Source: Thermogemmatispora onikobensis (lineage in GTDB: Bacteria; Chloroflexota; Ktedonobacteria; Ktedonobacterales; Ktedonobacteraceae). From it: a stretch of DNA of 64,000 nucleotides. This document shows, piece after piece, positions 24,633 through 38,695 of this stretch. The number at the start of each line of letters is the position of its first letter. The stretch's first letter is position 1. The position numbers and the translations under genes were made by a program. The notes beneath the pieces are model-generated. The model had not been told where the DNA came from. It did not search any database and worked only from the letters and a program-made list of their open reading frames with translations. The stretch is from the NCBI RefSeq assembly GCF_001748285.1, contig NZ_BDGT01000027.1, positions 1 to 64,000 on the forward strand, written 5' to 3'.

Positions 24633-24639
24633 TAGCCTG

Positions 24640-25785
24640 TCAAGCCAGTTGCTCAAGTACCCGGAAATCATGGGGATGGAGCAAGACCCAGATCCTCTTA
24701 CGCCTAGCGGGGGCACGTACCAGTGTCCCCGTCACGCTGACCAGGCGTCGATCGCGATGAGCATCGCAAGCAAGTGCATACTGGGAGGATTCGAGGGAGA
24801 GGTGCAGAGTACCCAGTTCAGGACTTTTCAGGCGTACCTGTCCTCGCTCTGTATCCTCCCAGTGTAATTCAGTGATCACGCCAGTGATTGTCTGCTCCTT
24901 TCCACTGCTTCCATCCTGGCTGGCTCGCAGGAGCTGAGCAGCCTTTTCAAGGTAGGGGATTGAAGAGCGATGCAGCTGCAAGGGAGGAAGATGAGAGAGG
25001 TCACTAGGAGCAGACAAGAGAGGCGACCAGCTAACAGAGTACTCCACGGCGGTATCACCAACCACCCTGAGCATTTCGGCAACCGCGCTGCACATATTGG
25101 CATTCAATCCTTCTGAGTAGTGCTCGACTAGAAGTCGATCATCTCCTGCCCGAGCTGCAGTGCTAAGCATGAGCAGTCCTCTCGTAATCCGCTCGACGAC
25201 CCTCCTTCCAAGAGGAATGGGAGATCCTTCCAGAGAGGAAAACGGCAGCTGCCCTTGCTCACTGGTCACCGGGGCCTGAAGTACAAAACCGAAGCTCGAT
25301 TGATAGGTGTGACCGAATTGGAAACGTCTGGTGAACCTCCTGGCAGTAGCGGTTGGCTGCGCGAAATAGCGCTGTCCTATCAGTTCCATACAAGCAGAAA
25401 AGATAACCAGGTTTCTGCAGCCACTCAAGAAGGAAGACACGGTCTCTAGCGAGGGCAGCTCTGAGGATGAAATAAGCAAGCGCAAGTAAATGGCATCAGC
25501 ACTGGCTGCTTGAATGCGGCTAATGAGGGTGGTTGGAGGTACATGCTCAATCTCCGCCAGTCTGTGCAGAGCTTCGGTCAGGCGCAGCTCGGCTCCTCCC
25601 AGATCCTTCGAACGCGGTAACGCAATGAGCATCGGCTCACCCAGCTTATTGGCCGGACCGGCAAAGACCAGCAGCTGCTGGTCACTGTACTCGATCTGAC
25701 GCCAGCCATGCGCTTGCAGGTAAGCCTGGACATCGGCAATGCTCACCAAGTCAAGCGGGAGCTCCTCTAACGATCTATGCATCAT
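24640..25785 (-). CDS. Uncharacterised protein with C-terminal OB-fold-like domain
   Basis: I cannot assign this 381-residue protein to a named family. The N-terminus (VSIADVQAYLQAHGWRQ, then LLVFAGPANKLGEPMLIALP) looks like a small alpha/beta domain. The middle is helical. The last 85 residues (from EQTITGVITELHWED) have an alternating beta pattern ending in LVSVTGTLVR and HDFRVLEQL, which suggests an OB-fold and hence nucleic-acid or protein binding; this is inference. Its ATG overlaps the DUF4365 stop by four bases, so it is translationally coupled to the nuclease-like gene. It is the last gene of the helicase/transglycosylase run. Confidence 0.75.
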   Translation of the reverse strand: MMHRSLEELPLDLVSIADVQAYLQAHGWRQIEYSDQQLLVFAGPANKLGEPMLIALPRSKDLGGAELRLTEALHRLAEIEHVPPTTLISRIQAASADAIYLRLLISSSELPSLETVSSFLSGCRNLVIFSACMELIGQRYFAQPTATARRFTRRFQFGHTYQSSFGFVLQAPVTSEQGQLPFSSLEGSPIPLGRRVVERITRGLLMLSTAARAGDDRLLVEHYSEGLNANMCSAVAEMLRVVGDTAVEYSVSWSPLLSAPSDLSHLPPLQLHRSSIPYLEKAAQLLRASQDGSSGKEQTITGVITELHWEDTERGQVRLKSPELGTLHLSLESSQYALACDAHRDRRLVSVTGTLVRAPARRKRIWVLLHPHDFRVLEQLA

Positions 25786-26345
25786 AACCTTACCTTCGCT
25801 TGCGCCTCATCAAGCAGGCTGAGCAAGACTGCTTCCGTAAAGAGGTTCGCTTTAGGGATATAGATTGTTTTAGATCTTACCTGATCAATTTCAACACGTC
25901 CTTGAGGCTTCCAATAGTAACAACACTTGTAGATGCTCAGGCATTCCTCACTTTGATGCAGCCAGTGATCAATACTTGGTGGCAGGCAGAGTAGTAATAG
26001 AACAGAAAAGATGCTGTTCACGAGCTTGCGATAGTTTTTTGCAGGGAGATCATAAACGATATAGTCTCCTCTGAGGCGGTAGTTGCGCGAGGCTTTCAAT
26101 TGCGCATCTACCATCATGCTGCCACTATCGTCGATCTCGCCGTCGATTATCCTTGGCCTACGAAAAGAAATATCGATGCCATAATCCCTCTTCAGGAGCG
26201 AGTAATTGACACCAGCTCTGGCGGCAAGAGCCAGGACATATGCCAGGCTGAGCTCCTCGGCACGATGGGCCTCTGGCATCATCGAGGGTGTAGGAGGCGA
26301 GGGCGAAGCGGGAGAGAAAAGGTCGGCCCTCTCTTCAGTTGCCAT
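25782..26345 (-). CDS. DUF4365-like protein, putative PD-(D/E)XK nuclease fold
   Basis: The 187 residues match the DUF4365 pattern. An acidic strand (RDYGIDISF) is followed by a strand ending in Q-x-K (MVDAQLKAS). Then come YIVYDLPAKNYRKLV, a hydrophobic strand with LLCLPPSIDHWL, and an aromatic YYWKPQG. The D...Q-L-K arrangement is a variant PD-(D/E)XK nuclease core, so a DNA-cleaving role is plausible. Proteins of this kind are frequent in defence islands. The ATG has AGGAG seven bases upstream and lies 34 bp after the helicase gene. The cluster context suggests it acts with the helicase on incoming or unmodified DNA (inference). Confidence 0.72.
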   Translation of the reverse strand: MATEERADLFSPASPSPPTPSMMPEAHRAEELSLAYVLALAARAGVNYSLLKRDYGIDISFRRPRIIDGEIDDSGSMMVDAQLKASRNYRLRGDYIVYDLPAKNYRKLVNSIFSVLLLLCLPPSIDHWLHQSEECLSIYKCCYYWKPQGRVEIDQVRSKTIYIPKANLFTEAVLLSLLDEAQAKVRL

Positions 26346-26379
26346 GGCTCAACTCCTATCCTGAACCTATCAGGCGGCT

Positions 26380-29300
26380 TTAGAGAAGGAAGAGCGCCCA
26401 CTCCTGTTCTTGACGATCCAGTGGCCAGCAAGCCACAGTTTCCAGTCCCAGACTGGCTGCTTCAGCGTGTAGCTGATCAACCTCGCTCCGCGAGGTACGG
26501 CGTAGCAGCTGCCGTACGAGGGCCTCCCCCACGCGGCGACTGACATATGGCGCTTGCCTGTAACGTCCTCGGCAGCAAGTTGTGACATAGATACAGACAG
26601 GACAGCCATCGTGTGCGTGGCAGGAGAGTTTGCTACTCTCGTCCTCTGCAAGCTGGTCGCCGCCATACTGACGGGTCCATTCTGCCTCGTCAGCAATCTG
26701 ATCGATGACCACCTGCCCCGAGAACGTCTGGGCAAGGGGTTCCATGGGTCCAATGGACAACAGCCAGCTGCGCGCAAACTCCTCACGCCAGCCCTGCTCC
26801 ATTGGCTGCTGGGGGTCCTCTGCCAGGTTAATCGGGCAAAGCACAGAGGCCAGCAAGGCTTGATAGACTTCCCTCGGTCGCGTTTTCAGGGCATGGGCAA
26901 ACACCTCCGAGAGTCCAGCACCGCCCTCATAGCCTTCCCAGACAACTACCTCACACCGCTGGACATCATACCAGTACTCCAGTGCCTGCTCATTGACGCC
27001 ACTCATAGTAGCAATAGTTTTGTAGAGCATATGAGCAGCAGTATGGAGAATCAGCTCGCTGTCCAGATGCTTGGGCTGCCCCTGTACCTTGATCTGGCCA
27101 AGCTCCTGGTGGAGCTGCTGATCAGTGAGTAGCGTCGTGACGAGATTCTGAAGCTGCCAGCGAATCCCATCGGTAGTGAGGTCGTAGCGCAGGGGGATCT
27201 CATAGCGAGCCAGGAAGGAGAGCGGTGGCCTCTTTTGCGGAACATAGTGCCCGTTGGCTTCCGGAAGCATCCGACGCGCGGAGACCTCTGCCCCTTCGAC
27301 TATCGTCACGCCTTTCATGGTCTTAAGAAGACTGAGGGAGAAAGTGAGTCGTCGCTCTGCTGGGCCAACCGTGTAGCTGCGCTTTATCACCGGAGATGCC
27401 TGCAACGTTACGTAACGAAGCTGCGAGTCACAGCAGTGGCGTGTACGACTGATACTATAAATCATGCGACAATTCTCGCACATCTTAACGACTTGCTGCC
27501 CTTGCTTATCCGTCTCTAAAGTTCTTACAGAGACCTTATATGGCGCGAAAAACTCGGCGTGATGCAATCCCTCAGCCCCTCGAAGCCGAATGGTGATTTC
27601 GTGGTCGCTACTTCGCTCCGGGAGAGGGACAACGTCTATGGTTGAGATATGACGAGCGTAGTAGCGATAGAGCGTTCTGTAAGGAGTGAGCGCATTGGCA
27701 AGTACGCCGATGTTCTCTAGCTCAACCTTGGTTTCGGGCTCTACTCCCTCCCCTCTAACCAGGCTGGCATTGACAAGAATTGGCTTTGTGGCCAAGAAAT
27801 AACCCTCTGGCAAGAGATACTCCACCCTGTAATTGCAAGCGTTGTCACTAATATCGTCCAGGTGGAGATAGAAGCTAGCCTGCAGCACAATTTTCATAGC
27901 CTCAGGTGGATAGCGAAGGATTCTCTTATCCTTAAAAAGCTCTTCTAGTTTGAAAAAGAATTTGTATAACCTTTCTACATCACTAAAATTTTTTATTCCG
28001 TTATCAGCAACATTTTTCCACAAATCAGCCATTCTACTAATTATATATGAGATCCTTTCAATGGTATGTCTGTCTTTAGTACTATACAGAAGATGCGACA
28101 GATAGTCATTCATCTTGAGGAAATGTCGTGAGATCTCCTCAGAGGAGGAATCCTCTTGCTTTAGGAAATCCAGGCTCAAACGTGCAGTTTCTTCCAGTGT
28201 GCATATTTCATCTTCTACATGATCTATAAGTGATTTTATCCCTAATTTATATTCCAAATCTACTTTATTGATATTTATCCACTTTTTCAAAAATTTCAAC
28301 TTTTCCTCTAAAGATGCGTCACTATATTTAGTTATATCATTTTTATAATATTGATTAATTATACCACAATTACTAATATTATCCCAGATCCATTGCAGCA
28401 ATCCTTTCTCCACCTTGTGCAGAGAGGTATAGGCAGCTAATTCCTTCCGCTTTCTTGAGATGATACCATGTATTGAGGAGATAACAGGATTGTCAGTCTT
28501 CAGCGGCAGCTCGTAGCTGCCCTCGATCAGCCGCCTGTAATGGCGGAGGTAGAAATGGCTAATCGGGGAGGTATCCAAGACCAGCATGCTATAGGCAGTC
28601 GAGCGCCAGCCCCGACCGGCTCGGCCACGCCTCTGAATAAAGGAAAATAGAGTGTGAGGAATAAGATACTGGATGACAGCTTGAATACGACTATCATCAA
28701 CGCCAATTTCAAAAGCTGCCGTAGCTAGTATAATATCCTCGTCGTAATGAGCGGCTTTAGCCTTAGATGTCACTTCCACTATTTTCAATGGTTGTATATG
28801 CAGATCAGGGAGTTCGCTGGTGCACTGCCCGCCTGCAGGCAGGCCACGCCAGCACTCGCCCTGCTCATAGATGCGACAAGAGGCTGGAGCTGTACGCGGA
28901 CACCGACGCTGGTTGAAGCAGAGCTGTTCCAGGTTACAGCGAAATGACCAGAGCCGGCGCTGCTCCTCGGCATCGCTGATCTGCGCACGGAATCTGCCGA
29001 CCATATCCAGGGAATCACAGAAGACGGTGCTTCGCCCCTCTCCTCTGAGAAGGGCATGACCCACGGCCATCACTGTCTGAATCAGTAAGGAGGAGGCCTC
29101 TACCCGCTCTTCGGGCTTCTGCAAGACATAGAGTAGCTCAAGGCCTGTCGGTACGCTGCTGTCATCTTCAGCCTTATGCACAACAAGCTGGTCAGACTTC
29201 CCTCCATAGAATAAGTTGGCGGCAAACCTCTCAGGCTCAAGAATAGTTGCACTTGCTGCTAACTTGGCAAGCGCTTGACCATCTCTGAGTTCCTCAAGGC

Positions 29301-30438
29301 GCCTCAGCATATGATGGATATGAGATCCGTAGATTGAGTGATAGACGTGAGCCTCATCAAGTACAATACCAGCTATAGATTTGATGTAGTTCTCAAACTT
29401 CTCTAGAGGATATATAGATATTTGATCAAAGGATTCAGCAGTCGTAATCAGCAGATGCGGCATCAGATCGGCATGATAGTTCCTTCCAATAGAGATATGA
29501 AAATTTGCTCCACAGCTATTACATTTCAATAGCGTATTCTTCCTGTTATTGTATTTTTTAGGATCTAATTCGTAATGGCCTTTTTTACAAATCACACATT
29601 TATCTATATATCTGAATGTATAACCTTCAAAGATCTCACTGTTTTCAAGGGCAGACTCGGGGTCTGGTCCCACCCCACCAAACTGGAAACCTATCGTGAT
29701 ACGTTTCCCTTTAGGAGGGACAGCCCCACCCCAGAGGCTCTTTAGGCTTATTTCCAACTCGGCGCGATACACATAGCGCAGGGCCCGCTCCAGTTGGTCC
29801 TTCAGCAAGGTGACTCGCGGATAGAGCAGAACGAAGCGCGGCACCTGATTGGCAGGTACTTCTTCCGCCAATTGGCGAGTAATCTCATAGATAATAGGCA
29901 GCAAGAAAACCTCAGTTTTACCGCTCCCTGTGGGAGCAGTAATCACCATACCCTGACGATGGCGGATGACTTCCAGCGCTTTTTTCCAGCCCTCGACTTG
30001 GAAAGTAGAGACACGGAGTTCCCCCTCTCTAGCAGCGGTGCTACTGTCCTGATGCTGCTGCTCCTCTTCACTGGGCCTCAAGAGTCGAGCAATCATCTCA
30101 AGCTCTCCTGGCAGATCTTCCAGGCGAAGAAGGCGCGGCGGTCGCCGCCTTACCAGCGCTTCCATACGCATATGCTCCACCAGTGATCTCGACGGCCCCA
30201 ACGCATCGAAGCGCTGTCGGAGCTGCTTCAGAAGGCGAACAAGTTCTATCGCCCGAGGCAAAAGGATGTCTCCTCCCAGAGCAACGAATTCCTCCCTCAG
30301 CTCTTCCCTCTTACAGAGAGGCTCTATACGCTGATGATAGCGTTCCCAGAGCAAGTTTGGCGGGGGAAAATCGCGAGCGGTTATGATATCTCGCATCATA
30401 TCCTGAAGCAGGTCCCGCATCTCCTCATAGGGGGACAT
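26380..30438 (-). CDS. Large DEAH-box helicase with C-terminal cysteine cluster (MrfA/YprA/DUF1998-like)
   Basis: The protein has 1352 residues. Walker A (TAPTGSGKT) is near 165, the DEAH box (VLDEAHVYHS) near 360, motif III (AASATI) follows, and motif VI (QRRGRAGRGW) is near 600. Two CxxC pairs between motifs I and II (CVICKKGH and CNSCGANF) suggest an inserted zinc knuckle. The C-terminal third contains HTAAHMLYKTI, an EGYEGGAGL motif and a terminal CPVCIYVTTCC cluster. This is the plan of COG1205/MrfA-like DNA helicases and of helicases in DISARM and dpd islands. The ATG at 30438 has AAGGAGAAGG upstream. The open frame runs 111 codons further into the neighbouring gene, but that extension is noise. 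Residues about 680-830 are encoded by strikingly AT-rich DNA, a sign of transfer. Confidence 0.88.
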   Translation of the reverse strand: MSPYEEMRDLLQDMMRDIITARDFPPPNLLWERYHQRIEPLCKREELREEFVALGGDILLPRAIELVRLLKQLRQRFDALGPSRSLVEHMRMEALVRRRPPRLLRLEDLPGELEMIARLLRPSEEEQQHQDSSTAAREGELRVSTFQVEGWKKALEVIRHRQGMVITAPTGSGKTEVFLLPIIYEITRQLAEEVPANQVPRFVLLYPRVTLLKDQLERALRYVYRAELEISLKSLWGGAVPPKGKRITIGFQFGGVGPDPESALENSEIFEGYTFRYIDKCVICKKGHYELDPKKYNNRKNTLLKCNSCGANFHISIGRNYHADLMPHLLITTAESFDQISIYPLEKFENYIKSIAGIVLDEAHVYHSIYGSHIHHMLRRLEELRDGQALAKLAASATILEPERFAANLFYGGKSDQLVVHKAEDDSSVPTGLELLYVLQKPEERVEASSLLIQTVMAVGHALLRGEGRSTVFCDSLDMVGRFRAQISDAEEQRRLWSFRCNLEQLCFNQRRCPRTAPASCRIYEQGECWRGLPAGGQCTSELPDLHIQPLKIVEVTSKAKAAHYDEDIILATAAFEIGVDDSRIQAVIQYLIPHTLFSFIQRRGRAGRGWRSTAYSMLVLDTSPISHFYLRHYRRLIEGSYELPLKTDNPVISSIHGIISRKRKELAAYTSLHKVEKGLLQWIWDNISNCGIINQYYKNDITKYSDASLEEKLKFLKKWININKVDLEYKLGIKSLIDHVEDEICTLEETARLSLDFLKQEDSSSEEISRHFLKMNDYLSHLLYSTKDRHTIERISYIISRMADLWKNVADNGIKNFSDVERLYKFFFKLEELFKDKRILRYPPEAMKIVLQASFYLHLDDISDNACNYRVEYLLPEGYFLATKPILVNASLVRGEGVEPETKVELENIGVLANALTPYRTLYRYYARHISTIDVVPLPERSSDHEITIRLRGAEGLHHAEFFAPYKVSVRTLETDKQGQQVVKMCENCRMIYSISRTRHCCDSQLRYVTLQASPVIKRSYTVGPAERRLTFSLSLLKTMKGVTIVEGAEVSARRMLPEANGHYVPQKRPPLSFLARYEIPLRYDLTTDGIRWQLQNLVTTLLTDQQLHQELGQIKVQGQPKHLDSELILHTAAHMLYKTIATMSGVNEQALEYWYDVQRCEVVVWEGYEGGAGLSEVFAHALKTRPREVYQALLASVLCPINLAEDPQQPMEQGWREEFARSWLLSIGPMEPLAQTFSGQVVIDQIADEAEWTRQYGGDQLAEDESSKLSCHAHDGCPVCIYVTTCCRGRYRQAPYVSRRVGEALVRQLLRRTSRSEVDQLHAEAASLGLETVACWPLDRQEQEWALFLL

Positions 30439-30458
30439 GGCCTTCTCCTTTCCAACAA

Positions 30459-32321
30459 CTAGCCGTCTGCCTGTTCGAGCTGTATGAGAATGGAAGCAAC
30501 GAGCTCCTCCAGATACTCCCGGCGAAAGAAGGCGGTCAGTCGACGGGCTTTCGGTTTGCAGGGCAGCACCTCCAGCCGGCCCGTGCGGCGCGCCGCCAGC
30601 TCCATCGCCTGCCGGTAAGCTCGACTCGTCGCATACCCCAGGCAGGCCACGTAGTGCTCTCCCCAGCGCTCCAGATAGCGAGTCAGCCGCCCGGCAACGA
30701 GCTCGATTTGCTGCTGGTTGCTTCCCTCCAACCGGAAGTCGTAACCCAGCACTTCTGGGGCCTGCTCCCACTCCTCGGGCACCGGCCCATACAGGCCCGA
30801 GAGCGTCACCCAGTGAATGCCGTGCAGCTGCTCACCAAGTGCCGCCTGCAGCCGCTCTCTGACGTAGCGGTGCGTGCGCGACTGCGAATAGGGTTTCTCT
30901 CCCGAGCAGGGCAACACCAGCAACAGGCGCTTGTCCACCGGGGGAGCATAGCCATTGCTGACGATGTTGAATGCCTCGGGGGTGTAGGCCAGGGAGACGG
31001 CCCGACGGCCACCGGTCCCCGCTGGCAAGCTGGGCTGACTGGTCCCACCAAACGAACGCCTCGAGCCGAGCCGGCGCAAGCGCTCGTCTCGCTGCTGAAG
31101 CCGGGCCAGAGCCTCTCGGAGGCGCTCATGCCCCTCCACCCAGCGCAGCAGAAAGTCCGCCAGGGCGTCTGCTGCCACCGCCTGGCGCACCTCCTCCACC
31201 AGGCGGAGATCTTGCTCGAGATTGTGCAGCGCCACCTCGGCATAATAGCGGCTCTTATAGGACCCGTTCTCTAATGGGCGACCCGCTGGGGTGAGGGATG
31301 TCAGCCCCGCCTGCAGCTCCGCGAGCGAGCTGGTCTGACACACCGGGCAGCTACAGGTCCACTCTTGCAACTCCAGGACCGGCACAAAGTGGTGCCTGAC
31401 TGGATCGTGATAGCGCAGGCTGCGCGCCATCTGCACGTAGGTACTGGAGTCAAAGGTATCCACTCCAAGATAGGCGAGCAGCGGGATGAGCGTGCCTGTG
31501 ACCCCAAACAGGTGCACCGGGGTCGTGGGCCGCTCGGCTGCCGGAATGCCCTCGATGGCGGCCTGCACCAGGTCGATGATGGTCAGCAGCTTCTCGGCCC
31601 CCCGCAGGCGCAACGGCACCAGCGAACCGATGGCAATCCCCAGCGGGATGCGCTGCAGTCCCTCGGCCTCGCGCAGCGCAAAGACGCGCTGCACCGCGTG
31701 GCGCAGGTCGTCGGGGGTCTGCCCATGGACCGCCGCATACACGAACGGGGGAGGGCCAGACTGCTCCGCCAGCAGGCGCAGGGTGATCCCCACATTGGCC
31801 AGACTGCGCGCCATACGCGCCTCGGCCTCTGCGCGCACCAGCCCGGATGGGAGCGGATAATCGAGGGTGGCAAGGAGACTGGCCCCGAAATCCTGCTGCA
31901 GGTGAAGAATGGTCTGCGGCGTGGCCTCCAGTCCATAGCGCGAGAGGTCCAGCTGGCTGTTCCACAGCAGCCGGAAGCCTCCAGAGTCACAGAAGAGAGG
32001 CGCCCGATAGTGCAGCTCAGGAAAGGCGGCCTGATAGTGCTCGCGCAAGGGGCGCTGCCGCCAAAAAGCCAGCCACTTGGGGCGAATGGAAAAATCAAGG
32101 AAGTGGAGGACCTGGGTCATGATGGGCCTCTGCTGGCGCAGCAGCCCATGTGGATGAGCCTGCAGCACATATTTCCAGATTCCTCCTCCGCGCGGCGTGG
32201 TGCCTGTGATCAGGGAGGCAACAGGAAAGAGTGTCGGCGTCTCCAGATCTCCTTCGCTGAGTCGAAAACATCCAGAACGCGGACCCCTCTCGCGGCAGCC
32301 GCGGAATCCCACAGTGGTCAT
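30459..32321 (-). CDS. DpdA/ArcTGT-like 7-deazaguanine transglycosylase with C-terminal ArcS-like domain
   Basis: The 620-residue protein begins with a TGT-type fold (LETPTLFPVASLITGTTPRGGG near residue 25). The catalytic aspartates are present: CDSGGFR near 110 and GVDTFDSS near 287. The zinc site CSCPVC is near 325. The last 160 residues open with LLLVLPCSGEKPYSQSRTHR and contain LSGLYGPVPEEWEQAPEVLGYDF, the pattern of the DUF5591 core of archaeosine synthase. TGT enzymes swap guanine for a 7-deazaguanine; DpdA members do this in DNA. ArcS adds an amine-bearing group to preQ0. The DNA-target reading rests on the neighbouring helicase and nuclease-like genes; a tRNA target is the alternative. 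ATG 32321 or an in-frame TTG at 32354 may be the start. Confidence 0.85.
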   Translation of the reverse strand: MTTVGFRGCRERGPRSGCFRLSEGDLETPTLFPVASLITGTTPRGGGIWKYVLQAHPHGLLRQQRPIMTQVLHFLDFSIRPKWLAFWRQRPLREHYQAAFPELHYRAPLFCDSGGFRLLWNSQLDLSRYGLEATPQTILHLQQDFGASLLATLDYPLPSGLVRAEAEARMARSLANVGITLRLLAEQSGPPPFVYAAVHGQTPDDLRHAVQRVFALREAEGLQRIPLGIAIGSLVPLRLRGAEKLLTIIDLVQAAIEGIPAAERPTTPVHLFGVTGTLIPLLAYLGVDTFDSSTYVQMARSLRYHDPVRHHFVPVLELQEWTCSCPVCQTSSLAELQAGLTSLTPAGRPLENGSYKSRYYAEVALHNLEQDLRLVEEVRQAVAADALADFLLRWVEGHERLREALARLQQRDERLRRLGSRRSFGGTSQPSLPAGTGGRRAVSLAYTPEAFNIVSNGYAPPVDKRLLLVLPCSGEKPYSQSRTHRYVRERLQAALGEQLHGIHWVTLSGLYGPVPEEWEQAPEVLGYDFRLEGSNQQQIELVAGRLTRYLERWGEHYVACLGYATSRAYRQAMELAARRTGRLEVLPCKPKARRLTAFFRREYLEELVASILIQLEQADG

Positions 32322-32424
32322 ATTCTTCCCATCTTCACCCTCATATTTGTGCAAAAAGGCAGGCTCTCCTTTCCGGGGACGGCCATCGGTTTCCTCTGAC
32401 TTTAGAGGCTACTTTTTAAAAAAA

Positions 32425-32453
32425 AGTATACTTCGTTCTCTTTGAAAAGGCAA
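32425..32453 (-). promoter_or_regulatory. Probable promoter of the transglycosylase-helicase-nuclease run
   Basis: On the minus strand TTGCCT (32448-32453) and TATACT (32425-32430) are 17 bases apart, a near-consensus sigma-70-type promoter. It would start transcription about 95 bases before the transglycosylase ATG. Immediately downstream is an A/T-rich symmetrical tract (ACTTTTT...AAAAAGT). Confidence 0.6.
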
Positions 32454-32595
32454 GCTGCTCTACATTTTCGAGCCATTTGCTCCTCGCACATTAATGGCAA
32501 TACCCCCAAACTTCCCGACTCTTTTTGAACTGAGCTGCCTCATTCCTGACCTGCCAGCGATTGCCACTATACACCTCCCATAGATTAGCTAGTTT

Positions 32596-32618
32596 GCTCT
32601 CGCCGTGGGGGCGAGAGC
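32596..32618. repeat. Perfect 9-bp GC-rich inverted repeat
   Basis: GCTCTCGCC (32596-32604) and GGCGAGAGC (32610-32618) flank a five-base loop. No T-run follows on the plus strand, and on the minus strand AAACTAG follows, so it is not a standard terminator. It lies 143 bp upstream of the transglycosylase promoter. Confidence 0.6.
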
Positions 32619-33284
32619 CTTACTTATTGCCAATTCGCAGCTCGCTTGGTTCCGCAATCAAGGAAGGCAGGGCACATGGCGAGCACGACCTCACCTCTGC
32701 CAGGCCAGGATAAGACTGCCCAGTATTGCATACAAAATCCAGCCGTCCGAGAAAGCAGTGGCTCTTGAGACACAGCCAGCTGCCAATCGGACGGCAGGAA
32801 GGCGCGAGAGCACAATTCTGCCAGGTGAGACACAGGCGAGCTAGCTTCACCCCTCATTCTCAGATTGTCTCTGCCTGTGTGCTAAGTCGCTAGAGCCACT
32901 GAGGCCACTAGAAGCACTGCCCTCCGAAGGTATTACTCGCATGCCAGCTTGCTGCGGCGATTTGGCTATAGCCGCCGTTTGACGGGCGGCACAGCGTGGG
33001 CAAACCAGCCGTGGCAGCCTCTCTTTCAGCCAGATGGGTGGCGCGGTCGCAGCAAACACAATCGATCTCCCCCTTTGGGGCCTGCAGTCCCAGGCAACGA
33101 GAGCCCCGATTGCCTGACCAGACAAGCAGGCAGGAATTGCCGCTGTTCTGCGTCTCTCCTCTAAGGAGGACACGCGCCACCATCTGACAACTGACAGAGC
33201 ACTCCCGAAAGTACCGGTTCACTCCCTCCTGGTCGCTTCTGCTTCTGCGCCTTCTACGGCGAACTCTCTTCTCTTCCCAGGCTC

Positions 33285-34487
33285 TCAGGCTTGCTCACTG
33301 TGGATCTCAGCCGGTCGTGGCGCTGGCGGTGGCTCCTGTTGCCGGAAGTAAGGCATCACTTCTTTGGCCATCATCTCCTGATGCTTGAGCACCAGGTAAT
33401 CAGGCATGCCGTCAGTACAGCCCCCAGTGACCAGCATGCCAGCATGCAATACCTCCGTGTAGTAGCTCAGCTTCTCGATAACGGTCGCCGGGCTGCCAGC
33501 AATGACCACCCCCTGCTCCACCAGCTCCCTGAAGGTCGTGTCACCAAAGCCAAAACTGGCCCGGTTCTCAATGGCGGCCCGAATGCTGCGCAGGCTCATG
33601 TAGCCTGGCGGCATGAAGAACTCCGTCGGGACCTTCATGGCCTTCTGGAAGAGCCACATCATGTAGCGCTCACCCTCTTTCATGGCCAGGTCGTCGGTCT
33701 CGGCGATGGCAATAGGTACGCAAAAGGCAAGCTGTTCGGGCTGAGCCTCGTAGCCATATTTCTCCTCAGCCAGGCGGCGATACAATTCATAGGCGCGCTT
33801 GCGCTGCTCCATTGGCATGAAGACGGTCATATAGGGATAGCGATGGGCAGCGGCAAAGTCGATGGTCTCCAGGCTGGCGGTGCCCGGCATCCAAATCGGC
33901 GGATGCGGCTTCTGCAAGGGCCGAGGCCAGATGTTGACGTAGCGATAGTTGTAGTGCTCGCCCTCGAAGCTGAAAGGGCCGGGCCGCGTCCAGGCCTGGA
34001 TGATGAGATCGTGCGCCTCGTTCATGCGCTCGCGGCTGAGAGTGGGATTAATGTTGTAGCTGAAGTATTCCATGCCGGTGCCACGCACAAAGCCGGAGAT
34101 GATGCGCCCACCGCTGATGACATCCAGCATGGCGATCTCTTCCGCCACGCGCAGCGGATCGTCGTGCAGCGGCAAGGCATTGCCGATGATGCCGATCCGG
34201 GCCCGCTTAATGCGCTGGGTCAGCACAGCAGCCATGATGTTGGGTGAGGGCATCGTACCGTAGGCATTCTGATGATGCTCGTTGACGCAAACGCTGTCCC
34301 AACCCAGTTTGTCGGCCCGCTCTAGCTCGTCAAAGTAGCGGTTGTAGAGAGCGTGACCCTTCTCGGGATCATAGATGCTGTTGGGCAGCGTCACCCAGGC
34401 CGAGTCGTACTTTTCGTCAAAGTCGGGTGGTAGATCAGGCCAGGGCATGAGATGGAAGTAGTGAAAAGTGAGTCGAGGGCGGCTCAT
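33285..34487 (-). CDS. LLM-class flavin-dependent oxidoreductase (luciferase-like monooxygenase)
   Basis: The 400-residue protein has the TIM-barrel pattern of bacterial luciferase-like enzymes. It has an early strand (LTFHYFHLMPWPDLP), VNEHHQNAYGTMPSPNIMAAVL near residue 70, IGIIGNALPLHDDPLRVAEEIAMLD near 105, and SGGRIISGFVRGTG. These enzymes use reduced FMN or F420 to oxidise small organic substrates in the cytoplasm. ATG 34487 has AGGAGGTGAG upstream; the open frame continues 64 codons further without support. It lies 20 bp after the hydrolase gene, so the two form an operon. It appears metabolic, with no evident link to nucleic-acid modification. Confidence 0.9.
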   Translation of the reverse strand: MSRPRLTFHYFHLMPWPDLPPDFDEKYDSAWVTLPNSIYDPEKGHALYNRYFDELERADKLGWDSVCVNEHHQNAYGTMPSPNIMAAVLTQRIKRARIGIIGNALPLHDDPLRVAEEIAMLDVISGGRIISGFVRGTGMEYFSYNINPTLSRERMNEAHDLIIQAWTRPGPFSFEGEHYNYRYVNIWPRPLQKPHPPIWMPGTASLETIDFAAAHRYPYMTVFMPMEQRKRAYELYRRLAEEKYGYEAQPEQLAFCVPIAIAETDDLAMKEGERYMMWLFQKAMKVPTEFFMPPGYMSLRSIRAAIENRASFGFGDTTFRELVEQGVVIAGSPATVIEKLSYYTEVLHAGMLVTGGCTDGMPDYLVLKHQEMMAKEVMPYFRQQEPPPAPRPAEIHSEQA

Positions 34488-34507
34488 GAGGGTCTCACCT
34501 CCTGTTG

Positions 34508-35314
34508 CTACTGCCGTGGCTCCGCGAGAAATGAGGAGATGTGCGCAGCCCATTGCTGGGCCTGCTCGAACATGGGCATGTGGCCAGTCCCTTCCAGCAT
34601 GATTAGCTGCGCACCGGGAATGAGACGCTGCCACTCCTGGCCATAGGCAGGTGGAATCAGACGATCGCGCGCTCCCCACACAATCAGTGTGGGGCAGCTC
34701 AGCCGCTGGAGACGCAGCGCCAGCTTCGGATCGTAGTGAGGATTCCAGGCCAGGGCGGCCAGGGCGGTGCGCTCGGCATAGAGGCGGACAAAGTAGTCGG
34801 TGTTGATCTCACGCGGAATCAGCGGCGCAGCGGCCATGAGATTCTCAAAGCAAGTCTCTAACAGCTGCTGAGGACTCAGGGCAAAGATGTCGGCGATCGG
34901 CACCCCTTTGACACGCAGACCCGCAGCGTTGGAGAGAACCAGCCGACTGACGCGCTCGGGATACCAGACGGCGATTTCGGCGGCCATCCAGCCTCCAAGT
35001 GAGTGCCCAACCAGGGCGGCACGCTCAAGACCCAGGGCCGCCATGAGATCGCGGAAGTACAGCACGTAATCGCTCATATCGTGCATCCAGTCTGGCCGCT
35101 CGCTGAGGCCAAAACCAGGGATGTCGGGGGCAAAGAGGTGGAATCGCTGGGCCAGTAGCCGATGGTAGTCGAGCCAGAGATTGCCAAGATGGGTGCCGTG
35201 CAGGTAGAGCAGCGGCGGGGCTGTGGGAGGACCGGCTTCGAAGAGATGGGTGGCTATCCCTTGCACTTCAATGGTGCGCTCAATCCGGTCGCCAGTGCGA
35301 TCGGCTTCGGTCAT
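34508..35314 (-). CDS. Alpha/beta-fold hydrolase
   Basis: The 268-residue protein has a complete triad: nucleophile serine in VGHSLGG near residue 103, aspartate in VWGARDRLIPP, and histidine in EGTGHMPMFE. The oxyanion region is LYLHGTHLGNLW near 37. Such enzymes cleave ester or C-C bonds. Pairing with the LLM oxidoreductase 20 bp downstream resembles catabolic pairs in which a monooxygenase makes an ester or diketone that a hydrolase opens (inference). ATG 35314 is used because AAAGGAG lies eight bases before it; the GTG at 35323 falls within that site. Confidence 0.9.
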   Translation of the reverse strand: MTEADRTGDRIERTIEVQGIATHLFEAGPPTAPPLLYLHGTHLGNLWLDYHRLLAQRFHLFAPDIPGFGLSERPDWMHDMSDYVLYFRDLMAALGLERAALVGHSLGGWMAAEIAVWYPERVSRLVLSNAAGLRVKGVPIADIFALSPQQLLETCFENLMAAAPLIPREINTDYFVRLYAERTALAALAWNPHYDPKLALRLQRLSCPTLIVWGARDRLIPPAYGQEWQRLIPGAQLIMLEGTGHMPMFEQAQQWAAHISSFLAEPRQ

Positions 35315-35633
35315 CGCTGACACTCCTTTCTCTCCAGATGCAGGGCAAGAGCATGACCTCGCTCAGACGCAGGTGAATGCCTGGGTCCAGCCGTCGACCC
35401 AGACGGCTCCCCCCCCTTGCTCTCGATAGAAAATAGAAAGGAAACATATGCGGTCGTCCGCTCGCCTCTCGACGACCAGAAGCAGCGGAGGGAGCACAGA
35501 CAAAACACCGCTCACGGAGAGAAGGATAACATATGCAGCTGTCTCCTCCACGCTTGCCGGCAGGGAGCTCAGGCGAGAACAGCGGGTAACAGGGGGCGAG
35601 ACGAGTCAATTCGGTAAGATAATCGATCCGGCC
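35315..35633. other. 319-bp spacer, no feature recognised
   Basis: No coding frame, hairpin with T-run or clear promoter hexamer pair was recognised between the hydrolase and TcmP-like genes. The hydrolase promoter should lie here. Confidence 0.4.
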
Positions 35634-36728
35634 CTAGCTAAACAGGACAGGCATGGTCAGATCGCTGTAGGTGCCTTTCCTTCGCCCTTCCGACCCATAG
35701 ACCACAATCTTCCCCTTCTCTTCCAGCAGGCTCAGGCTCGACTTATACTTGAAAAATGCGGTATCGGCAATAACAAATTCTTCGATATCATCAACAGTAA
35801 CTCTTTTTCCTCTAAAATGATCGTAAATCTCTTTAGCCAGAATTGCTGGATCATCGTTATGAAGCAAGAATCCCTGTCCCATTCCTGTACAGTCGGAGAA
35901 GACAAAGTTACCCGTTGGGTCAACCTTCCACATCGCCCGTTTCATCTCTTTCATCCCTCGACGATGCTTTGTGGCAAAGAAGAGAAAATAATCAGTTGTA
36001 TTTCTACTATTGCGCATACAGAATGAGCGCACGTAGCGAGCGCCAGCGACAGTTAAGAGCTGCTGGCGATAGAGGTCGTGCAGGCGCCGCTGCCGTGTCT
36101 GGACATCGGGGGCATCAAGGGTGATTGTCTGCCATGCGGTGGTACCGAAGAGGGAGTCATAATGTTGCTGCTTGGTCCTGTAATCAGCTTCCAGAAAACG
36201 ATTGATTTCCTCATGCATGAAGGTGATCAAGACCTCACAGCGAGGGCAGGCCATCAGGTTGCGAATAACATCCATAGGTGCATGGGAGAAGCCAAATGGA
36301 TCGATAAAGACAAACATGGCATCATAGCGCCTGCAGCCGCTAGCCAGAAGACTGGTCATTGCATCTACAAATCTGCCCGTATATACCTCGTAGGTCGCTG
36401 TGGACGGCAGCGGCTGGTACTGCAGATGGGCCTGGAGCTTCTGTCGAAGATGAGCCGCCCGCTTTGGATCAAGCTCCACAAAGAGAAACTTCACTGTACC
36501 CCGTTGGAGAGAAGCAGCACGATGCTGCTGATACGCGCTGATCATAATGAGCGGCGAGCCGATTTCTCCTCCAACGTACTCCCCCGGACCGGCAAAACCA
36601 TCGATCAGCAATCCGCTTCTTCCCTCACGGATAAGGATCGGGAGCCAGGCATCCAGGTATTTGCGCAGAATGACGTGTTTCGCACGCGTGTGATCATCCA
36701 GCTTCCAGATCACTGACTGCGGAGCCAT
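35634..36728 (-). CDS. tcmP: Three-Cys-motif partner (TcmP) family protein
   Basis: The protein has 364 residues. The start (VIWKLDDHTRAKHVILRKYLDAWLPIL) and LLIDGFAGPGEYVGGEIGSPL near residue 40 are diagnostic of TcmP. FVELDPKRAAHLRQKL and FVFIDPFGFSH near 139 follow. D-G-F-A-G-P-G and D-P-F-G sit where a Rossmann methyltransferase has its SAM site and its DPPY motif, so an enzyme acting on nucleic acid is plausible but unproven. The C-terminus (KRVTVDDIEEFVIADT...) looks like a winged helix. TcmP genes typically neighbour a protein with a three-cysteine radical-SAM-like motif; here such a gene lies 264 bp upstream. ATG 36728 has AAAGGAG. Parts of the gene are AT-rich. Confidence 0.82.
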   Translation of the reverse strand: MAPQSVIWKLDDHTRAKHVILRKYLDAWLPILIREGRSGLLIDGFAGPGEYVGGEIGSPLIMISAYQQHRAASLQRGTVKFLFVELDPKRAAHLRQKLQAHLQYQPLPSTATYEVYTGRFVDAMTSLLASGCRRYDAMFVFIDPFGFSHAPMDVIRNLMACPRCEVLITFMHEEINRFLEADYRTKQQHYDSLFGTTAWQTITLDAPDVQTRQRRLHDLYRQQLLTVAGARYVRSFCMRNSRNTTDYFLFFATKHRRGMKEMKRAMWKVDPTGNFVFSDCTGMGQGFLLHNDDPAILAKEIYDHFRGKRVTVDDIEEFVIADTAFFKYKSSLSLLEEKGKIVVYGSEGRRKGTYSDLTMPVLFS

Positions 36729-36992
36729 TACGCGCTCCTTTCTAGCTCGCCGCTTCTGGCCATCCCCTCCCTGGACAAGACGAGTCACACCACCCTCCTC
36801 AGCCAGGCCCTTCGGAGACAGCGAAGCAAGCAGTATACGCCGAGATCAGAGCTTGCAGCACTCCTCGGATCTTCAAATTTTTAATAAACAAACCGCACTA
36901 TCAGTTTTATCTCTCTCTCTATCGGAGTATACCTAATGACAGGTTCTTTGACAAGAGAAAATCTCCTAAGATAATCAAGCGAGCATTAAAAT

Positions 36993-38453
36993 CTACTTCT
37001 GTAGAGTGTGATTGATGACAGGAAGCGGGCCGCGCTGTAGCTGAGCACGGAGCCGATAGCTGATGTGGCAGGCGCAGGGCATGCTGCTGATCACCCCGGC
37101 TTTGAGGAACTGCAGGGCTTCCCGTGGGTCCGCCTTGCAGGGGGTGGTTTGCACCTGGCCGAGGCCGTAGCGCTCCAAGAGCAGCCGCACCCACTGGTAG
37201 AGCCGTTGCTGCCGCGCCGCCGACGGGCGATATTTGTGCGCCACCACCGCCGGCTCCAGCTCAGCGAGCAAGGGCGTCACCTGTTCCTCGGGCAAGCTTG
37301 ACTTGAGCAGCCGTGGCATCTGCGGCGAGAAGCGCAGAATATCCACGGTCATCCGCTTGAGCCGCGGCCCCAGGATGTCGCGGATCTGGGCAAACAGCTC
37401 GTGATAGGCCGCGCGGTAACCCGCCACGGGAATGATTGGCCCCAGCCGGATCGTATGATCGAAGGCGCCATGATCAATAGCCCAGGCCAGGCCGCCCAGG
37501 CGCTCCTCCGGAAGGGCCCCGCCCGGCTCAAACTGCGCCGAGATGACTGCCGGGTTCAGGCTGATGGCCACGAGGGCCAGCCGGCCATCGAGCTGCAAGT
37601 AGGGCTCGTAGACCCCCTTGGTCAGGAAGAAGGAGACGATCCCGCGCGCACTGGAGAGATCCAGAATGGTCTGCACCAGCGAGCCGCGCCCCTGCTCATC
37701 GACGAACCAGGGATCTTCCTCGACAGGGCCGCCCAGTTCCGCCCAGTTGACCACACTGCCCCGCGGCAGACGGTCCAGCTCGGGGATGACGTCTTCCAGA
37801 TTGAGCGCCACGCTCTTGAGACCCATCCCCTGTAGGCCGCGCAGGTAGCAGAAGCTGCATTCGACCGGGCAGACGCCCTGGGCGTAGTTGCCCCGCAGGA
37901 AGCCGCGAATCGGTTCGGCCTCCCGCTCCTCCTCGCGGGAGCGGGAGCCAGCGATCCAGGTCTGGCGACCCCGACGGTAGGCCACAATCGGCGTCCAGGC
38001 CCCACAGGTCGTGCCAGCCCCACCGACAAAGGGGGCAATGAACTGCGGGGTGCCGGCCCCGCCGCGCCGAATGAGCAGGAGGAGACGCGCCTTGCGCTGC
38101 GCTTCATCCTCGGCGGGCCAGAGCTGCCGATGCAGCGTCAGCGCCTCACGTGCCACCTCGCTCCGACTGCCGAGACGCCGCAGATGGACCGCCGCCACCA
38201 GCGGCGCCAGGCGCTCCGCGGCGGCGCTCGCCTGCTCTTCTTCCTGCCGGCTGTGGGCGTGCAGCAGCAGGTGAGCGGGACGCGCCGGCGCCAGCCGGCG
38301 GCGATTCGCGAGCAGGCGAGTCGCCCGCTCGCCCGCCACACCACTGGCCACGGCAGCGTCCAGGACCACCAGATCAATCTCCGCCAGCCGTCGGAGCATC
38401 GATGGCTCCCCCAGCATTCTCTCTTTTTCACAAGTTATATGCTGCGTCATCAT
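36993..38453 (-). CDS. Spore-photoproduct-lyase-like radical SAM protein
   Basis: The protein has 486 residues from the ATG with AGGAG eight bases upstream; the open frame extends 30 codons further without support. The iron-sulfur motif is C-P-V-E-C-S-F-C (about 191-198), within NYAQGVCPVECSFCYLRG. This is the CX3CX2C spacing and context of spore photoproduct lyase, COG1533. ISLNPAVISAQFEPGG resembles the SPL radical-SAM barrel. The N-terminal 170 residues are Ala/Arg-rich and unlike SPL. SPL-type enzymes repair a thymine photoproduct in DNA, so a nucleic-acid substrate is a reasonable guess. As the first gene of the island and neighbour of tcmP it may be the three-cysteine partner. Confidence 0.8.
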   Translation of the reverse strand: MMTQHITCEKERMLGEPSMLRRLAEIDLVVLDAAVASGVAGERATRLLANRRRLAPARPAHLLLHAHSRQEEEQASAAAERLAPLVAAVHLRRLGSRSEVAREALTLHRQLWPAEDEAQRKARLLLLIRRGGAGTPQFIAPFVGGAGTTCGAWTPIVAYRRGRQTWIAGSRSREEEREAEPIRGFLRGNYAQGVCPVECSFCYLRGLQGMGLKSVALNLEDVIPELDRLPRGSVVNWAELGGPVEEDPWFVDEQGRGSLVQTILDLSSARGIVSFFLTKGVYEPYLQLDGRLALVAISLNPAVISAQFEPGGALPEERLGGLAWAIDHGAFDHTIRLGPIIPVAGYRAAYHELFAQIRDILGPRLKRMTVDILRFSPQMPRLLKSSLPEEQVTPLLAELEPAVVAHKYRPSAARQQRLYQWVRLLLERYGLGQVQTTPCKADPREALQFLKAGVISSMPCACHISYRLRAQLQRGPLPVINHTLQK

Positions 38454-38695
38454 CGAGTACTCTCCTTGTAGTAGCGCCCCTGGCCTCCCCCATCCCTCCT
38501 TGCCCCTCCAGAGCCTGCGGCTCTTCCGTGGCCGATCGTACAAGTTGACAATAAATCGAATATTTGTTCAAGATCGTCTTAATTATACCCGAGCACGAGG
38601 ACGAAGTCGAGAGAGCAGAGACAACGGGCTAGAAAAACATCAGCGAGCACCCATCTGGCCCCCTGAACGCCCCCCATTTTGGCCCAGTTTCCATC

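Follow-up and report, generated by a model that had tools for sequence, protein, structure and literature searches.

Islands of the dpd type are defined in GATOR-GC by dpdA plus dpdB and are reported in eight phyla, and their DpdC proteins carry DUF6884 (PMC11888242). BRC (BREX-related capture) systems are a recent precedent for a tRNA-guanine transglycosylase (TGT) in a defense locus that has neither DpdB nor DpdC (PMC12839542), and the ArcS of Thermococcus kodakarensis transfers lysine to preQ0, even on the free nucleoside (PMC11298593). Here we analyzed 64,000 nucleotides of Thermogemmatispora onikobensis (hereafter the window), which lie on contig C27 (NZ_BDGT01000027.1) of a 5.56-Mb draft genome (G000). 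The window carries a mobile cassette of four genes, which encode a TGT fused to an ArcS-type domain (TGT-ArcS), a DpdJ-related helicase, a DUF4365 protein (PDC-M02A) and an OB-fold protein (PDC-M02B). On sequence grounds the cassette is Dpd-like but built on a separate TGT lineage, and is not a Dpd island; we lean, on balance, toward a restriction-modification-like function in which a preQ0-derived mark in DNA would denote self and unmarked DNA would be attacked. No description of TGT-DUF5591 defense cassettes was found in the literature searched, a search that left out the main dpd papers and reviews, so novelty is unproven.

The boundaries of the cassette are given by an empty site (Table 1). 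The whole locus is found in the same order in one genome of the same genus, Thermogemmatispora carboxidivorans PM5 (G039; L025). In three others (G038, G040, and G042) both flanks align at 79-97% and the segment from 24637 to ~32950 alone is absent, leaving intergenic sequence and a total gap of ~770 bp between the flanking genes; all four genes are therefore jointly present in two species and jointly absent in three. The original prediction had joined a TcmP gene and an SPL-like radical SAM gene to these four. Both are present, with a hydrolase and an LLM gene between them and the TGT gene; TcmP matches TIGR04474 (203 bits) and also PADLOC PDC-M30A, and the SPL-like protein matches TIGR04070 at E 2e-5, far under the cut-off. 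Their membership, however, is ruled out by the empty site: the LLM, hydrolase, TcmP, and SPL-like genes adjoin a methyltransferase gene in the three cassette-free sister species and thus belong to the background of the genus. The TcmP and SPL-like genes (window 35634-38543) are neighbors in several species of the genus, and TcmP is partly deleted in G038.

Within the cassette the genes are spaced as tightly as predicted, with 20 bp between TGT and helicase, 34 bp between helicase and DUF4365, and a 4-bp overlap between DUF4365 and M02B. The TGT-ArcS gene starts with TTG, though an ATG at ~32321 may be the start instead. As listed, the helicase open reading frame (ORF) overlaps the TGT gene; its likely start is the ATG at 30438, which lies behind AAGGAG, past the TGT stop. 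What had been called a clear promoter proved to be a candidate ahead of the TGT gene that is plausible but not strong, since 13 promoter-like sites at the same level occur in the region versus 6.6 +/- 2.3 in shuffles. G+C content is 50% in the helicase and M02A genes, 65% in the TGT gene, and 60% in the window. Between the two cassette-bearing species, dN/dS is 0.16 for TGT, 0.20 for the helicase, 0.09 for M02A, and 0.14 for M02B, which indicates that all four genes are under purifying selection.

Table 1. Positions of the cassette features in the window
Feature	Coordinates	Strand	Basis and remarks
TGT domain fused to DUF5591 (ArcS core-like), 631 aa	30459..32354	-	PF01702 + PF17884; predicted 7-deazaguanine transglycosylase + preQ0-nitrile-processing domain
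DpdJ-related SF2 helicase with Cys clusters, 1352 aa	26380..30438	-	NF041067 DpdJ 194 bits, PADLOC DpdJ 213 bits, helicase motifs
DUF4365 protein = PADLOC PDC-M02A, putative nuclease-like effector, 187 aa	25782..26345	-	PF14280 E 1e-13; PDC-M02A 168 bits
PADLOC PDC-M02B protein, 381 aa: N-terminal domain of unknown fold + C-terminal OB fold	24640..25785	-	PDC-M02B models 904 + 215 bits
Sigma-70-like promoter candidate TTGCCT-17-TATACT upstream of TGT	32425..32453	-	9/12 match, weak on its own
Accessory cassette extent	24637..32950	.	Set by the empty site of three sister species; sharp on the left, to within ~25 bp on the right

The first gene encodes the predicted fusion of a TGT domain (PF01702, E 3e-20) with an ArcS-like domain (DUF5591, E 1.5e-14). 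The catalytic aspartates D123 and D302, which in the family lie in DSGG(F/Y) and FD/YD, and the zinc ligands C334/C336/C339/H377 (CxCxxC...H) are invariant in 27/27 aligned rows. The AlphaFold model (pLDDT 84) has its best PDB matches in archaeosine TGT (1j2b/1iq8). With its predicted active site intact, the protein appears to be a catalytically competent TGT fold. The segment PCSGEKPYSQSRTH fits the motif PC(X)3KPY(X)2S(X)2H, reportedly the signature of ArcS, which is complete in 25 of the 27 rows (the window protein and 24/26 relatives); two relatives deviate at one position. TGT fold, DUF5591 core, and this motif, the last of which also occurs in a 613-aa Methanolobus protein (L050), are shared with ArcS and archaeosine TGT. 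In contrast to these, the window protein combines a complete TGT site and the ArcS motif in a single chain, has no PUA match, and scores far under both the ArcS (94 bits versus 440) and TgtA cut-offs.

The cassette resembles Dpd in its TGT-family enzyme for preQ0, its large DpdJ-related helicase, the preQ0 genes in its genome, and its mobility. It differs in that the window TGT gives no match to the DpdA model NF041059 (cut-off 200 bits) at E<=1e-3, the best member of its family reaching 21 bits, whereas a genuine DpdA from a Nostoc plasmid reaches 483 bits. The helicase falls below the DpdJ equivalog cut-off (194 versus 800 bits, residues 173-729 of the ORF), although DpdJ (NF041067) is its best curated relative, and the effector genes are different. 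As originally predicted, a scan of the cassette genes and their flanks gave no DpdB (DndB/DGQHR family), DpdC (DUF6884), or phospholipase D (PLD) family, nor any other dpd gene. In place of a separate DpdC stands the fused DUF5591, with which DUF6884 aligns distantly (hhalign probability 80, E 1.4e-5, two-sequence template). Because it fails on DpdA, DpdB, and DpdC and falls short of the DpdJ cut-off, we do not count the cassette as a Dpd member, and it would be missed by the GATOR-GC rule, which demands both dpdA and dpdB; it would nonetheless work like a Dpd system. None of its proteins matched the PglZ, DUF6079, STAND NTPase, DUF4007, or HerA of BRC, and its helicase matches the DrmA models of DISARM (DrmA + DrmB) through the helicase core only (52 bits), with no DrmB. 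Adjacent M02A and M02B match both PADLOC PDC-M02 model sets, but that name spans these two proteins only; PADLOC gives no match for the TGT, and for the helicase it gives DpdJ models. Filing the cassette as Dpd, BRC, or DISARM was rejected, since the defining proteins are missing.

Scanning 85,000 species with a profile returned 25 loci of the TGT-ArcS family (L025-L049), some of them contig-end fragments. Hosts in the scan were Thermogemmatispora, Thermosporothrix, Dictyobacter, cyanobacteria, Poribacteria, and metagenome-assembled genomes (MAGs) of Chloroflexi, Proteobacteria, and Kuenenia; plasmids add three members, from Haladaptatus (two copies) and Natrinema. The distribution is patchy, spanning Chloroflexota, cyanobacteria, Poribacteria, and haloarchaeal plasmids. 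A phage origin was rejected, as relatives were found in 0 of 50,697 phage records and none in IMG/VR was convincing. Phylogenetic analysis placed DpdA in a clade separate from the family (100/100), and other sampled TGTs also split off (100/100), in a tree with long branches from which true archaeal tRNA-TGTs are probably missing; the TGT-ArcS family itself was left unresolved as one clade (2 changes, with one row on a 5.27-long branch inside).

The neighbors of these TGT genes are frequently defense genes. GmrSD_N and HEPN_MAE_28990 adjoin TGT in seven cyanobacteria (assigned to families in L030 and by similarity in the rest; L031 is fragmented), and in G470 a GmrSD_N relative stands beside a further TGT. 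NurA and HerA adjoin TGT in Thermosporothrix, DrmA/DrmB/UvrD in a Chloroflexi MAG (L042), and AIPR in a Proteobacteria MAG. The Poribacteria neighbors are SNF2-PLD helicases at two loci, an N6/N4 methylase with a MutH-like endonuclease at a third, and HsdR at a fourth, while two more Poribacteria loci have a QueD-family gene upstream of TGT. Two family members lie in mobile-element contexts.

The second gene encodes the large Cys-cluster helicase that had been predicted, with GSGKT/DEAH/SAT/QRRGRAGR motifs in DEAD/Helicase_C domains and four CxxC pairs; the domain search recognized no nuclease domain. Relatives directly follow TGT in Spirulina (L030, 961 bits) and a Coleofasciculus MAG (L027, 431 + 138 bits), so that linkage in relatives held for the TGT-helicase pair in three genera including Thermogemmatispora, but not for the full set of six genes. 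A related 1571-aa helicase also stands beside TGT in Natrinema (L122). Among 390 cyanobacteria, both TGT-bearing genomes have GmrSD_N downstream, in Spirulina after the helicase. The second helicase-bearing cyanobacterium (L164, G714:C18) has no TGT; its helicase, ~50% identical to that of Spirulina, lies near DndB (PF14072), UvrD, and a PD-(D/E)XK nuclease. An obligatory TGT-helicase linkage was rejected on the cyanobacterial counts and this TGT-free relative. These cyanobacterial counts and contexts suggest that the helicase may follow DNA-modification loci more generally while the TGT changes partners.

How might such a cassette act? In the restriction-modification-like scheme we favor, the TGT domain would swap some guanines of host DNA for preQ0 from the queuosine pathway, and the fused ArcS-type domain would then work on the nitrile, most likely to attach an amine such as lysine, as ArcS does, or else to turn it into an amide or amidine. 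DNA marked in this way would count as self, and the helicase, together with the nuclease-like DUF4365 protein and the OB-fold protein, would act on unmarked incoming DNA, with the effector partnered with the helicase being exchangeable across the family. This division of labor is inferred, and the product of TGT-ArcS is uncertain. The TGT probably acts on DNA, judging from the recurrent defense partners, the copies in mobile elements, and the parallel with Dpd. PADLOC at 20 family loci (E<=1e-15) matched 106 models with 74 adjacent proteins and 15 models with 52 proteins five to six genes away, a matched comparison that counts models and not proteins. The adjacent matches include five NsnA/PD-T4-2-like, two DpdJ, two SNF2-PLD, two MTase_II, and two REase_I; the distal ones come mostly from one TnpB/Cas12f-like protein. 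Several observations weigh against our interpretation. A number of the partners were first spotted in these same loci, three family loci (L036, L038, and L045) have no clear defense neighbor, and the TGT is closer to archaeal tRNA-TGT/ArcS models than to DpdA. Helicase and TGT each occur in 2/390 cyanobacteria, with only one genome common to both, and in other Chloroflexota M02A-M02B pairs are found with neither TGT nor helicase beside them. The proposal of a 7-deazaguanine cassette unlike dpd islands is supported by intact active sites, defense neighbors, mobile-element contexts, and preQ0 genes, but its fixed set of six genes is not, as partners vary, M02A-M02B also stand alone, and SPL-like and TcmP lie outside.

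The solitary pairs make the effector side the least certain part of the scheme. Both genes had been described correctly: the DUF4365 protein M02A has a conserved D...QxK in seven homologs, and M02B, a 381-aa protein with no Pfam family in the domain search, has a C-terminal OB fold in its AlphaFold model (pLDDT 80), for which the best PDB matches (SSB, OBody, and telomere-binding OB folds, E ~5e-3) are weak but consistent. The PDC-M02B model matched at 904 bits was probably built from the window protein or a near-identical one. From the PADLOC names we take the two to be a candidate defense pair, and they may be a separate, stacked system. That the window holds a TGT-helicase unit and an independent M02A-M02B pair in the same transcription unit seems rather doubtful to us. 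It would account for the pairs found alone and for Spirulina, where the TGT-helicase unit is followed by GmrSD_N and HEPN instead of M02A-M02B, but it sits poorly with the close spacing of the genes on one strand behind one promoter candidate and with their joint presence and absence among species.

Turning to the substrate, QueC is strong in 21/22 host genomes of the family. The window genome has QueC (204 bits), QueF (118 bits), and a YhhQ-like gene, and it also encodes the canonical Tgt for tRNA on C16 and one more Tgt on C17. Because of this complement, preQ0 should be available and an extra TGT is not needed for ordinary queuosine. It is nevertheless conceivable, though unlikely in our view, that TGT-ArcS modifies tRNA as a bacterial archaeosine-type enzyme and that its defense neighbors reflect only residence in defense islands. 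Archaeosine TGT and ArcS are its best matches in NCBIfam, its best PDB folds are those of archaeosine TGT, and the missing PUA match need not tell against a tRNA substrate, since a title cited in PMC11298593 reports PUA to be dispensable for archaeosine formation. On the other hand, the family is spread patchily over phyla with recurrent defense partners, one copy is carried by what looks like a mobile element equipped with replication genes, the host has its own canonical Tgt, and RaSEA (TIGR01210) is not over its cut-off in 21/22 genomes.

That RaSEA exceeds its cut-off in only 1/22 genomes also led us to drop dG+ as the favored product, although dG+ chemistry might proceed without RaSEA. 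An adduct of preQ0 with an amine is no less likely than dG+ or an amide, and could be the end product, since it is RaSEA that completes archaeosine in archaea. Chemically, it is plausible for an ArcS-type domain to work on a DNA base, given that the T. kodakarensis enzyme accepts a free nucleoside. The one RaSEA match (283 bits, G417:C43:2913-3860, L150) is in the Proteobacteria MAG that also has TGT-ArcS L044, and could be contamination.

A version in which the helicase acts as main effector, the TGT provides only a self-protection mark against it, and M02A-M02B does not restrict is improbable: it suits the helicase directly after TGT in three genera and the relative with DndB, UvrD, and PD-(D/E)XK nuclease, but most family members are without such a helicase and the helicase has no recognized nuclease domain.

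If the restriction-modification-like scheme is correct, 7-deazaguanine DNA marking would extend to a TGT lineage outside DpdA that is coupled to several different effectors and is spread over haloarchaeal plasmids as well as Chloroflexota, cyanobacteria, and Poribacteria. From its fused ArcS motif a specific modified base can be predicted. Only tentatively do we propose the most specific form of the scheme, in which one bifunctional enzyme would put preQ0 into bacterial DNA and add lysine or another amine, giving an undescribed base by which a family of restriction systems with exchangeable effectors would recognize self. Such systems are easily missed because family-level annotation calls these genes tRNA enzymes, as with the plasmid relatives, which bear the label 'tRNA-guanine transglycosylase'.

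Further TGT genes were observed in the same genome and on plasmids. A second TGT-ArcS gene (L005, G000 C29:10383-12380) is 94.4% identical to the window copy over 1741 bp, with stretches of 150-200 bp at 100% identity and others near 80%, a pattern that suggests recombination between the two copies. Together with genes for a PolA-primase and a serine recombinase it forms part of an apparent mobile element, whose own DNA it may protect. The second bacterial-type Tgt paralog of the genome (L002, G000 C17:83594-84664) lies beside a gene resembling, by eye, an rRNA methyltransferase. Haloarchaeal plasmids of Haladaptatus (L121) and Halobaculum (L157) carry several TGT genes each; in addition to its two TGT-DUF5591 genes, L121 has a separate TGT accompanied by DUF6884 and PLD-like genes. 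The true DpdA of the Nostoc plasmid (L123:2662-4806) has an N-terminal DUF6884 (DpdC-type), a domain order that is the reverse of the window protein.

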